A DNA stretch of 64,000 nucleotides, taken from assembly GCF_015694705.1 (NCBI RefSeq), contig NZ_JADQDR010000011.1, positions 124,001 through 188,000 of the forward strand, written 5' to 3'. This DNA comes from Pontibacter rufus. GTDB taxonomy: Bacteria; Bacteroidota; Bacteroidia; Cytophagales; Hymenobacteraceae. Shown in pieces: positions 55,178 to 58,777 of the stretch. Both the position numbers and the translations under genes were made by a program. A model generated the notes under the pieces. The model had not been told where the DNA came from. It ran no database searches and was given only the letters and a program-made list of their open reading frames with translations. How positions within the stretch are numbered: position 1 is the stretch's first letter; each line of letters starts with the position of its first letter.

Positions 55178-55708
55178 ATGAATTACTTCGAATTTTATAC
55201 CTTACCGGAAAGTTTCCTGCCCGACGAAAAGGCGCTGAAAGCCAAATATTACGAGCTGAGCCGCGCCTACCATCCTGACTTTCACGCCAACGAGCCACAG
55301 GAAAAGCAGCAGGAAATCTTACAGCTCTCTACCCAGAACACCAACGCTTACCGCACCCTCTCCGATGCTGACCTGCGCATGCAGTATATTTTAAAGGAAT
55401 ACGGATTGCTGGAAGAAGGCAAAAACGAGCTGCCGGCCGCGTTCCTGATGGAAATGATGGAGCTGAACGAGGAACTGATGGAACTGGAATTTGATTTTGA
55501 TGCTGCCAAACTGCACGAGATAGGCGAAAAAAGCGCCGGCGTGATGGCGCAACTCGAAAACGATGTGCTGCCGGTACTGCAACGCTACCCCGAACTGCAC
55601 GGCATTACCAAAGACGAGGCCCTGCAGCAGGTAAAAACATACTACCTGAAGAAGAAATACCTGTTGCGAATTCAGGAAACATTATCTAAGTTTGCAGCAC
55701 GTTCCTGA
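55178..55708 (+). CDS. hscB: Fe-S cluster co-chaperone HscB
   Basis: 176 residues. An N-terminal J domain with the HPD tripeptide at residues 32-34 (SRAYHPDFHAN) and a C-terminal helical HscB oligomerisation domain (ELNEELMELEFDFDAAKLHE). It delivers IscU to the HscA chaperone. No iscU or hscA is adjacent. The promoter of tRNA-Leu lies inside its last codons. Confidence 0.92.
   Translation: MNYFEFYTLPESFLPDEKALKAKYYELSRAYHPDFHANEPQEKQQEILQLSTQNTNAYRTLSDADLRMQYILKEYGLLEEGKNELPAAFLMEMMELNEELMELEFDFDAAKLHEIGEKSAGVMAQLENDVLPVLQRYPELHGITKDEALQQVKTYYLKKKYLLRIQETLSKFAARS
55664..55694 (+). promoter_or_regulatory. Promoter of tRNA-Leu
   Basis: TTG (55664-55666), a 20-base spacer and TAAGTTTG (55687-55694) match the Bacteroidota consensus. 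The expected start is near 55701, about 19 bases before the tRNA. The element overlaps the 3' end of hscB. Confidence 0.65.
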
Positions 55709-55719
55709 CAACGGAACAT

Positions 55720-55803
55720 GCCTTGGTGGCGGAATTGGTAGACGCGTTGGTCTCAAACACCAATGAGGTTACACTCGTGCCGGTTCGACTCCGGCCCAAG
55801 GTA
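55720..55803 (+). tRNA. tRNA-Leu (anticodon CAA)
   Basis: 84 bases with a type II long variable arm. The acceptor stem GCCTTGG pairs with CCAAGGT (one G-U). The anticodon stem TTGGT/ACCAA encloses the loop CTCAAAC with anticodon CAA. The T loop is GGTTCGACTCC. CCA is not encoded. Confidence 0.97.
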
Positions 55804-55814
55804 CAGTTAAAAAC

Positions 55815-55852
55815 AAAAAGCCCTGCAGCTGAAAAGTTGCAGGGCTTTTTTG
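55815..55852 (+). terminator. Terminator after tRNA-Leu
   Basis: AAAAAGCCCTGCAGCT and AGTTGCAGGGCTTTTT form a 16-base stem with a GAAA loop, then further T residues. It also gives a T tract for the minus strand, so it may serve the PIN gene too. Confidence 0.88.
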
Positions 55853-55919
55853 TTTTGGGGAATTGTTGAGGGGACGGAGTATACTTTGCTTTTAACTCTA
55901 ATAACGAGTTAAAAAAATC

Positions 55920-57227
55920 TTAATCGAATATTTCACTTGATTCTGCTAAACTTAAAGCTTTATAAATTTTAGTTGACTGATGATTAGTAGTATGACTGTT
56001 TACATCTAATCGCAATATATCCTTTTCAATAATACCTTTATAATACACACTTCCATAATCACTCAGAATAGTGAACTCTATTTGATTATCTACAATTGAG
56101 TATTGGCCATTCGTTCTATACCCACTATTAAACCATTTTTGTACATTTGTTAGAGTTCCAGGCTTATTAAGATTCCCCATTAATGAAACATTAATAACTT
56201 TACCGTCTTCAAAAAACCTAAGGCAGCTTTGATTACTAGGATTACTAGGATTACCAGAATAATAAATAGCATCATATCTTAAAAGAGAGCTATTAGTTAA
56301 TTCTTCTATTTCAGCAAGAATACCTTCCTCAATTTTTAATGAATTATATTTTTCTAAATTAGTAATAAACTGTCCTAAAGTATACATCCAAAAATGAGTT
56401 TTAGTAGAATCTGTAAATTCTTGAACTAATTCTTCTTTCGGTCGAATAATTCTTGTTTCACCACCTTTCTTTTCTACGTGACACCAATCTTGTTTGACAT
56501 CATCAGTAATTAGCACAATGGGTTTTGATGTATGTGAAGCATAATCTATAATTTGTTTCCACACAATTAAGTCCCCATATCTTTGGATACCGTCTTTAGA
56601 ATTGTAATCTTCGAAACCAGGTGCTATTTTATTTCTATACCTAAACTCCCCTTGCGCAGATATTTCCATCATTCTATCAAAGTCATAGGCTTTACCAACT
56701 TCAAAGAAGTTATCAATAGCAAGTTTTACGTCATCATTATCTGCAGTATTAGAAATTTCAGCCTTTCTTAGATCTATTTCTTTATTAAAATCTGTATTGA
56801 GCAATATAAGCTCCTTACTCAAATCATCAAGAGTAGAGTCAAAAGATTCAAAAATTATATGGTTAACGTATGGATGGGAGAGCTTTTTCTTAGTCTTGTT
56901 CTTAATGTTTTCTAACTGATTTTTTACTTTTGATATATTGGAATTCAATTGAGCGAACTCATCTAGAATAGTTCCATATTTTTCTCTAATTGGTTTTTTA
57001 AGAGTTTCTTTTCTATTCTTTAAGTATTCAAATTCCACATGATTAGGAATCCATAGTCTACCTTTCAGAAACGGAAATACTTTATCAAAAAGATGTAGTT
57101 TTGTTTGTTGTGAATAATAATAGAAATTTAGCAAAGCAGAAGTATCAAAAACAAACACACAATTAGACCAGGTTGATTTTTCAATTTCTTCATCAAAATA
57201 GTAATTCCTAATTCTGTTTTCCTTCAT
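55920..57227 (-). CDS. PIN-like domain protein, possible RNase of a defence islet
   Basis: 435 residues. The N-terminal PIN-like domain (about 25-290) has the first acidic motif FVFDTSALLNFYYYS and later acids in LVLITDDVKQDW, the PIN_8/DUF4935 pattern. A coiled-coil insertion (about 85-150, LNSNISKVKNQLENIKNKTKKK in two parts) separates them. The remaining 140 residues (about 300-435) are beta-rich and unassigned. PIN enzymes cut RNA. The gene is strongly AT-rich compared with its neighbours, starts far from any operon partner and abuts tRNA-Leu, suggesting horizontal gain. No antitoxin is adjacent, so it is not an ordinary VapC. A defence role is an inference. Confidence 0.78.
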   Translation of the reverse strand: MKENRIRNYYFDEEIEKSTWSNCVFVFDTSALLNFYYYSQQTKLHLFDKVFPFLKGRLWIPNHVEFEYLKNRKETLKKPIREKYGTILDEFAQLNSNISKVKNQLENIKNKTKKKLSHPYVNHIIFESFDSTLDDLSKELILLNTDFNKEIDLRKAEISNTADNDDVKLAIDNFFEVGKAYDFDRMMEISAQGEFRYRNKIAPGFEDYNSKDGIQRYGDLIVWKQIIDYASHTSKPIVLITDDVKQDWCHVEKKGGETRIIRPKEELVQEFTDSTKTHFWMYTLGQFITNLEKYNSLKIEEGILAEIEELTNSSLLRYDAIYYSGNPSNPSNQSCLRFFEDGKVINVSLMGNLNKPGTLTNVQKWFNSGYRTNGQYSIVDNQIEFTILSDYGSVYYKGIIEKDILRLDVNSHTTNHQSTKIYKALSLAESSEIFD

Positions 57228-57480
57228 ACTATATTAATTATGCTAGAATTTACAATTTAATGACTTTATTTCATTATTATAATATAATAATGAAATAAAG
57301 ATGCATAACATGCTGCTAGATAAACAAAAATCCGGCATTACCCGGTTCTTTCTTTTAGAACTCTTCCTTATCAAATATCGCTGAATAGTCTTTACAACTA
57401 GGACAACTGAGTAAGCAATCTGTAAAAGCCAACATTCAAGCAAGCCTGCTGCTCATTTATTAGCAGCTCCTCACCTCTCC
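57228..57480. other. AT-rich intergenic region upstream of the PIN gene
   Basis: It contains the 17-base perfect palindrome (57264-57300). A small open frame at 57243-57443 has no recognisable content and is probably not a gene. Confidence 0.5.
57264..57300. promoter_or_regulatory. Perfect AT-rich palindrome upstream of the PIN gene
   Basis: CTTTATTTCATTATTAT (57264-57280), centre AAT, then the exact complement ATAATAATGAAATAAAG (57284-57300). It lies 37-73 bases before the PIN start. It may be a binding site for an autoregulator, a terminator or an element border. Confidence 0.55.
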
Positions 57481-58371
57481 TTAGGACTTCAGTTTCTCAT
57501 TAAAAAAATCGATGGTACGTTTCCAGGCAAGTTCTGCCGCAGCTCTGTCGTAGCGGGGCGTGGTATCGTTATGGAAGCCATGGTTGGCATTGGCATACAT
57601 GTAAGCGGTGTATGCTTTATGCTGCTCTTTTAAAGCAGCTTCGTAAGCAGGCCAGCCTTCGTTAACGCGTGTATCCAGTGCTGCATAATGCAGCAGGAGC
57701 GGCGCCTGTATGTTGGGAACATCTTCTATAGGCGGCTGGCCTCCATAAAACGGAACAGCTGCCGACAAATCCAGAATCCGGACAGCCATCATGTTGGCGA
57801 TCCACCCGCCAAAGCAAAAGCCTACCACGCCCACTTTGCCATTACAAGCCTTGTAGTCTTTCAGGTAGTGATAAGCCGCTATAAAGTCTTCCAGCATTTC
57901 ATCCCTGTCCCGCTTACTTTGCAGTTCACGCCCTTCATCGTCGGTACCGGGGTAGCCGCCCAAGGGTGTCAGCGCATCAGGAGCCAGTGAAATAAACCCT
58001 GCCAGCGCGGCCCTTCTGGCCACATCTTCAATGTGCGGGTTCAGCCCCCTGTTTTCATGGACAACCACAATGCCGCCGAGCTTCTTTTCCGCATCCGCAG
58101 GCATTGTCAGCAAAGCTTTTATCTTTCCGCCACCTTTCGGAGACTGGTAGTAAATGTATTCCGATTTTAAGCGCGGATCATCTGACTTCACCTGGATTTT
58201 GCCCTGGTAGTCGGGCATCAGAAAACTCATCAGTGAGGCTACAGTAAGGCCACCCACCGCATAGAGGGATAGCTTTTGCACAAACTCGCGCCTGTTCACC
58301 CGGTTGTGGGCATAGTCATCATACAGGTCGAACACTTCCTGTTTGATGTTTTCTCTTTTGATTTCGTCCAT
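57481..58371 (-). CDS. Dienelactone hydrolase family protein with twin-arginine-like signal
   Basis: 296 residues from the ATG at 58371 ([20 protein letters not shown]); an upstream ATG at 58479 would add 36 unrelated residues. An [21 protein letters not shown] segment (shown in two parts) resembles a Tat signal anchor at residues about 20-45. The alpha/beta hydrolase has the nucleophile Cys in [12 protein letters not shown], the acid in AALDTRVN and the catalytic His in NHGFHNDT. It hydrolyses lactone-type or ester substrates in the envelope. Confidence 0.9.
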
Positions 58372-58598
58372 GTTAAGCCTGCCGTTTGTTTCTACTCTGA
58401 ATGTAAGCAATTTTACATCAAACAGGTATTTTTCTGGCAGCTTTTCTTTTATATGATTGGCCTGCCCGTTCTGGCGCAAGCGTCCGCTTGTGCTATGTAT
58501 GCTAAGGATTGGTATGTTTTTGTTTTGAGGACCACAGGTTCTTTATGAACCTAAAGCCCTGTTGCCAGGTATGGAAAGGTAAAACAAGCCAACCACTC

Positions 58599-58711
58599 AT
58601 GAGCAGGAAGTATAAATTCCGGGATCAGGATAAACTACACTTCGTGAGCTTTTCAGTGGTATACCGGAGAGACGTGTTTACCCGGGATGAATACAGGCAG
58701 GTGCTGCCCGA
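58599..58711 (+). pseudogene. Truncated REP-associated tyrosine transposase (RAYT) fragment
   Basis: MSRKYKFRDQDKLHFVSFSV, then VYRRDVFTRDEYRQVL, is the N-terminus of IS200/RAYT-type Y1 transposases. The similarity ends near 58711, where the frame runs on into unrelated sequence and stops at 58769. The HUH motif and catalytic Tyr are lost, so it is inactive. Confidence 0.8.
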
Positions 58712-58777
58712 TTGTACCTTGATGGATATTACAAACCTATTCTCTCCTCCTTTGCACTTTTTAGTTTAATTTGCTTT

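Follow-up and report, generated by a model that had tools for sequence, protein, structure and literature searches.

A PIN_8 nuclease gene behind tRNA-Leu(CAA) in Pontibacter rufus as the probable surviving cargo of a small integrating element

Leucine tRNA genes as landmarks and the islet of P. rufus

Leucine tRNA genes are a usual landmark of Bacteroidota IMEs such as NBU1, which use a MobP relaxase, and both NBU1 and MTnPi4 integrate at the tRNA-Leu 3' end (PMC5704250). Small defence islands made of an integrase and one or two defence genes, with no known transfer genes and with unexplained mobility, were described in E. coli (PMC10121019), and many hotspots are devoid of any mobile genes (PMC5635113). 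The locus presented here lies in a 64,000-nt stretch of Pontibacter rufus (contig NZ_JADQDR010000011.1, positions 124,001 to 188,000, referred to as the window), where 115 bp separate the end of tRNA-Leu(CAA) from an ORF coding for a PIN_8 nuclease. The joint explanation that we consider best, with a probability of about 0.6, is that this islet is the surviving cargo of an integrating element of ~6 kb and that the cargo is a single-gene RNase defence protein.

The original prediction of an islet with one long PIN-like ORF adjoining a tRNA-Leu gene was borne out, and so was the sharp difference in composition (Table 1). The islet has a GC content of 0.287, compared with 0.514 and 0.521 on its two sides, and GC3 is 0.206 for the PIN_8 gene but 0.556 for the neighbouring DLH gene and 0.627 for HscB. 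In agreement with the predicted lack of an antitoxin, the ORF list contained no convincing antitoxin-like ORF between tRNA-Leu and the right flank; the sole small ORF of the islet (57243-57443) is an out-of-frame overlap with a zinc-ribbon gene remnant, which lies 46 bp from the stop codon of the DLH-like gene. The description as a single-gene islet holds for the long ORF but had passed over this remnant. Similarly, integrase and repeats of the tRNA end are absent from the islet as stated, but relatives carry a full integrating element at the site, and an att-like sequence directly after the terminator had been missed. The terminator hairpin is also present at that position in relatives. The hairpin at the cargo/zinc-ribbon boundary is not significant when taken alone (z -1.23).

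Table 1. Features of the islet and its borders in the window
Feature	Position	Strand	Evidence
HscB-like J-domain gene, host, conserved left neighbour of the site	55178..55708	+	beside tRNA-Leu in 18/18 relatives compared
tRNA-Leu(CAA), host landmark of the insertion hotspot	55720..55804	+	ARAGORN
Intrinsic terminator of tRNA-Leu, hairpin and U run	55810..55857	+	MFE -30.3 kcal/mol, z -6.45
Degenerate attL-like sequence GGGGAATTGTTGAGGGGACGGAGTA	55857..55881	.	score 17 vs control 99th percentile 13
Cargo gene: PIN_8 nuclease with beta-barrel-like C-terminus, 435 aa	55920..57227	-	Pfam PIN_8 E 1.8e-50; model pLDDT 83
PIN_8 domain, residues 24-258; acids D28, E67, D165, D207, D219, D243, D247	56454..57158	-	residue conservation
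Long helical hairpin insert, residues 62-163	56739..57044	-	predicted helices 62-111 and 123-163
Probable sensor: beta-rich domain at the C-terminus, residues 314-425	55953..56288	-	homologues and weak fold match
Weak terminator: conserved GC hairpin between cargo and zinc-ribbon gene	57326..57354	-	aligned with AACCGGTGTTACCCGGTT in relatives
Truncated zinc-ribbon gene remnant of the element, MLAFTDCLLSCPSCKDYSAIFDKEEF*	57355..57435	-	profile match E 1.8e-6; DNA match too
Dienelactone-hydrolase-like (DLH) gene, host sequence resumes on the right	57481..58479	-	GC 0.52

To the right of the DLH-like gene, a truncated ORF (58509-58769) looks like the beginning of the IS200-type (Y1_Tnp) proteins that are encoded on the right side of the slot in L037, L045, L052 and L067 (L numbers designate loci, G numbers genomes). 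Pfam gave no match for the window ORF and Y1_Tnp for the L045 protein.

A variable slot behind tRNA-Leu(CAA)

The site was compared across 50 genomes of the genus, including that of the window. All of them possess tRNA-Leu and the upstream HscB gene, and a 157-bp stretch from the HscB end through the tRNA was recovered in 50/50, in several of them as two separate matches, one to the tRNA and one to the end of HscB; the gene order PhoH, SAM54, abm, HscB, tRNA is kept in most relatives inspected. Only in the window genome (1/50) is the site occupied by the PIN_8 gene. It is missing there from the 49 others, mostly with other AT-rich genes instead, which upholds the predicted foreign nature of the islet. 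One congener has a PIN_8 gene elsewhere (31% identical); in two others, all that was found is a small protein resembling the C-terminus of the window protein. In 37 genomes, the window included, GC is below 0.40 over the 1.2 kb past the tRNA terminator; the mean over all 50 is 0.374 in this 1.2 kb versus 0.483 further on. That the islet could be ordinary host DNA, AT-rich by chance, is ruled out by the absence from the site in 49/50, to which the GC3 contrast with both neighbours adds; only a negligible chance is left to it.

The slot genes differ from genome to genome, with a different, often defence-like gene in nearly every related species. Among the cargo domains are GmrSD_N (two cases), KAP NTPase (L042 and L047, with L063 and L077 sharing DNA of L047), OLD/AbiEii-type AAA (four cases), NACHT with SNaCT8, DUF4238, DUF2971, HSDR_N, Sel1, BNR and Reg_prop, and about a dozen genes gave no confident Pfam match. 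The PADLOC profiles AbiLi, AriA, PtuA, GajA and OLD each match at most four slot members. In G047, a gene pair AAA_15 + DUF4435, the make-up of PARIS, precedes another copy of the zinc-ribbon gene. Since GNAT and EamA genes (L256) and Sel1, BNR and Reg_prop genes (elsewhere) are no defence cargos, the slot is not restricted to defence. It offers a practical trap for new defence genes. The unnamed cargos of L087, L082, L050, L051, L064, L071, L079, L081, L037 and L040 are candidate defence genes.

Separate elements with large serine recombinases were observed at the tRNA-Leu 3' end in L046, L053 and L058, and distally in L038/L088. They carry two-gene cargos, three of which consist of an SMC-like ATPase and a partner of 364-369 aa. 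In L038, the tRNA end CGGCCCAAGGTAC is repeated, and in G047 a serine-recombinase element is stacked with a tyrosine-integrase element.

The parent element and its decay

Many genomes have the sequence TTTTcGGGGGACGGtgtAGGGGACGGAATT in common at a distance of about 55 nt downstream of the tRNA. Scored against control windows of the same genome, the att-like sequence exceeded the 99th percentile in 23 of the 50 genomes, among them that of the window, where ~0.5 would be expected. Searching whole genomes with the double GGGGACGG pattern and one mismatch gave nine hits, all at the tRNA-Leu locus, versus two hits for the reversed control. A dispersed REP-like repeat was discarded, the double pattern being confined to the locus; the single, looser pattern (two mismatches) returned mostly background, with fewer hits than its reversed control.

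The double pattern flanks two intact elements, found at tRNA-Leu in L038 (G047) and, in another genus, L256 (G187), the only two among 204 genomes of the bacterial family. With lengths of 6,009 and 6,229 bp, they share the order att, cargo, zinc-ribbon gene, Rep, ~100-aa ORF, Xis-like gene, gene for a ~305-aa protein, tyrosine integrase, att. In G047, the att pattern recurs 6 kb downstream with the complete element between both copies. Its cargo is GmrSD, its zinc-ribbon protein (88 aa) has two CxxC pairs, its Rep belongs to REP_ORF2-G2P (47 bits), its Xis-like protein is HTH_17, and its integrase comprises Arm, SAM-like and catalytic domains. Each end of the G187 element bears a copy of the direct att repeat TCAGGGGACnnnTTAGGGGACGGTTTTA, and its cargo was judged by eye as GNAT-like and EamA-like. 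Between the two elements, the integrases are 69% and the Rep proteins 80% identical.

These elements share with NBU1-type IMEs the tyrosine integrase, the accessory excision gene and the leucine tRNA landmark; integrase and direct att repeats occur in L038 and L256 but not in the window copy. They differ by a REP_ORF2-G2P rolling-circle Rep in place of a MobP relaxase above the Pfam cut-off (PF03432, 16.1 bits against 24.6), by a size of only ~6 kb with one cargo slot, and by an att located after the terminator, unlike NBU1, which sits in the tRNA 3' end. An att inside tRNA-Leu was thus rejected for the tyrosine-integrase element, although it holds for the serine-recombinase elements. Among the element core genes scanned, all but the ~100-aa ORF, no packaging or capsid-interference genes were recognised, and the ~305-aa protein received no assignment. 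Like the integrase-only islands of E. coli, the elements are small, combine an integrase with one or two defence genes and lack known transfer genes. Here, in contrast, different species and genera share the same att and core genes, the elements encode a rolling-circle Rep, and most copies are stripped of all mobility genes. Searches with the Rep retrieved the parent element neither from plasmid and phage collections nor from IMG/VR, and the 305-aa protein gave no hit in 390 genomes of the order, a draw that possibly lacks its two carriers. No paper on the parent element or on PIN_8 in defence was found in a literature search of partial coverage.

Decay of the element can be followed at the same site. 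Pieces of Rep were detected in 12 congeneric genomes, in nine of them at the tRNA-Leu locus, many with stop codons. Of the 50 genomes, 18, that of the window among them, have the zinc-ribbon gene, or at least its 3' end, at the site. What is left in the window is a single, degraded left att-like sequence, the cargo and, of the zinc-ribbon gene, the final 26 codons, which host sequence follows immediately. Among 2,339 window frames, the next best match to the zinc-ribbon profile had an E value of 0.9. The Rep family and the integrase are absent from the window genome. This series from intact through partial to bare cargo explains why the original prediction, based on the window, saw neither integrase nor tRNA repeat: the right part is deleted, and the att lies past the terminator, outside the tRNA gene, so that no repeat of the tRNA is made. 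The locus is a worked case in which an intact vehicle, a decay series and a bare cargo are aligned at one site across a genus.

It is therefore well supported that the AT-rich PIN_8 gene came to lie beside tRNA-Leu by delivery with an element that later decayed, and we regard the mobile-element origin of the islet as very likely. The integrase and Xis-like protein would excise and insert the element between GGGGACGG-type sites past the tRNA-Leu(CAA) terminator, and Rep would copy the excised circle by rolling circle. Later deletion from the right may have stripped the zinc-ribbon, Rep, Xis and Int genes in most hosts, leaving the cargo alone fixed beside the tRNA.

The slot could alternatively turn over by homologous recombination between conserved flanks, the islet being swapped as a DNA block without any site-specific integration. 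Most slot copies indeed have no integrase, the shared left anchor (tRNA and terminator) and often the zinc-ribbon gene could serve as arms, and integrase-less hotspots that recombine at flanking core genes are documented (PMC5635113). Nevertheless, both intact elements, complete with tyrosine integrase and att repeats, sit exactly at the site, and the zinc-ribbon anchor itself belongs to the element. Moreover, the right-hand host genes vary between subclades, so that no conserved right arm exists beyond the islet. We consider this alternative improbable.

The PIN_8 protein and its family

The PIN_8 assignment was confirmed by profile search: the window protein matches PF18476 with 172.5 bits (gathering cut-off 26.1) over profile positions 1-222 of 227. 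The catalytic acids, whose loss would have spoken against the proposed RNase module, are all kept. Residues D28, E67, D207, D219 and W223 are invariant in 126/126 PIN_8 relatives, and D247 is kept in 125/126. These relatives were recovered only by using an alignment, plain patterns derived from the window protein giving no close ones. The closest full-length relative is from Azohydromonas, in line with a foreign origin of the gene. In the structure model, the PIN half and the helical hairpin have block-mean pLDDT values mostly above 87, and up to residue 310 the pLDDT is mostly above 90. The coiled-coil insert noticed earlier corresponds to two long helices of high pLDDT. The beta-rich C-terminus, also noticed earlier, was located at residues 333-424, where the strands are modelled with moderate to low pLDDT (43-83). 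The top Foldseek matches, none with E <= 0.001, fall mainly on this C-terminal part, which has a weak likeness to calycin-type barrels (nitrobindin, FABP, lipocalin; best E 0.02-0.03). It lies outside Pfam, setting the protein apart from PF18476 as described. VapC-type PIN toxins (~130 aa, with an antitoxin partner) have the PIN domain and acidic active site in common with the window protein, which differs by its length of 435 aa, the lack of an antitoxin, the long helical insert and the extra C-terminal domain.

The window C-terminal domain is clearly present in one other PIN_8 protein only, the betaproteobacterial one of Azohydromonas (L102), and was weakly matched in two more (L103 and L182). 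Stand-alone proteins of 135-143 aa homologous to this domain exist within the bacterial family. Small secreted or lipoprotein-like homologues were observed in L097, L098 (without confident Pfam match), L004 and L005; two stand-alone homologues have lipobox-like starts by eye.

Across the family at large, the N-terminal halves of PIN_8 proteins form one homology group, and the C-terminal parts fall into 69 groups at E 1e-3, a number that represents the upper end of a range since the looser threshold of E 0.1 merges them into 25. As a control, clustering a PIN segment of similar median length left a single group at either threshold. One nuclease half combined with unrelated C-terminal halves fits an effector with exchangeable sensors. 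Together with the defence-like genes that occupy the slot in relatives, these swappable C-termini make a single-gene, abortive-type RNase defence protein plausible, and we lean moderately towards a defence function of the PIN_8 cargo. The PIN_8 half would be a metal-dependent RNase that stays inactive as long as the barrel-like domain at the C-terminus has not sensed a signal associated with phage; once activated, it might cleave tRNA or mRNA, and the resulting dormancy or cell death would stop the infection. As control would then reside within the PIN_8 protein, an antitoxin would be unnecessary.

Two other functions were weighed against defence. Toxin-type cargo stabilises many mobile elements, and PIN domains are common toxins; the gene might thus serve the maintenance of its element, or superinfection exclusion, rather than the host. 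The islet is however without an antitoxin gene, the cargo varies in nearly every copy while the element core genes are shared, and PIN_8 genes are spread over many phyla in unrelated settings, which renders this role doubtful. A house-keeping or regulatory RNase, acting in RNA turnover or stress and receiving different regulatory inputs through its various C-termini, would agree with the stand-alone C-terminal homologues being small proteins with signal or lipobox-like starts, and with a literature in which no experimental record of PIN_8 was found: within partial coverage, the term 'PIN_8' gave only plant auxin carriers of the same name and PF18476 gave nothing. It is unlikely in view of the patchy distribution (any match in 16 of 204 family genomes), the occurrence of PIN_8 on 50 viral or proviral contigs and the lack of conserved neighbours, no constant partner gene appearing among 104 neighbours.

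Returning to the defence function, the defence libraries contain no PIN_8 family, and the window protein matched no family of PADLOC-DB even at E 1; in PHROGs it best matches a family of unknown function. Elsewhere, the neighbours of PIN_8 genes are only lightly mobile- or defence-related. Tentatively, PIN_8 proteins may make up a large, as yet uncatalogued class of anti-phage RNases encoded by single genes, combining one nuclease half with dozens of exchangeable sensors. In this bacterial family, they would be among the cargos of ~6-kb Rep/integrase elements that form a new family and typically deliver one defence gene at a time to the fixed slot behind tRNA-Leu(CAA), the vehicle being lost later. 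PIN_8 is offered here as a testable modular family of putative RNases.

The PIN_8 gene of L095 (G107) is split into two ORFs in a neighbourhood resembling that of L094, and looks like a decayed copy.
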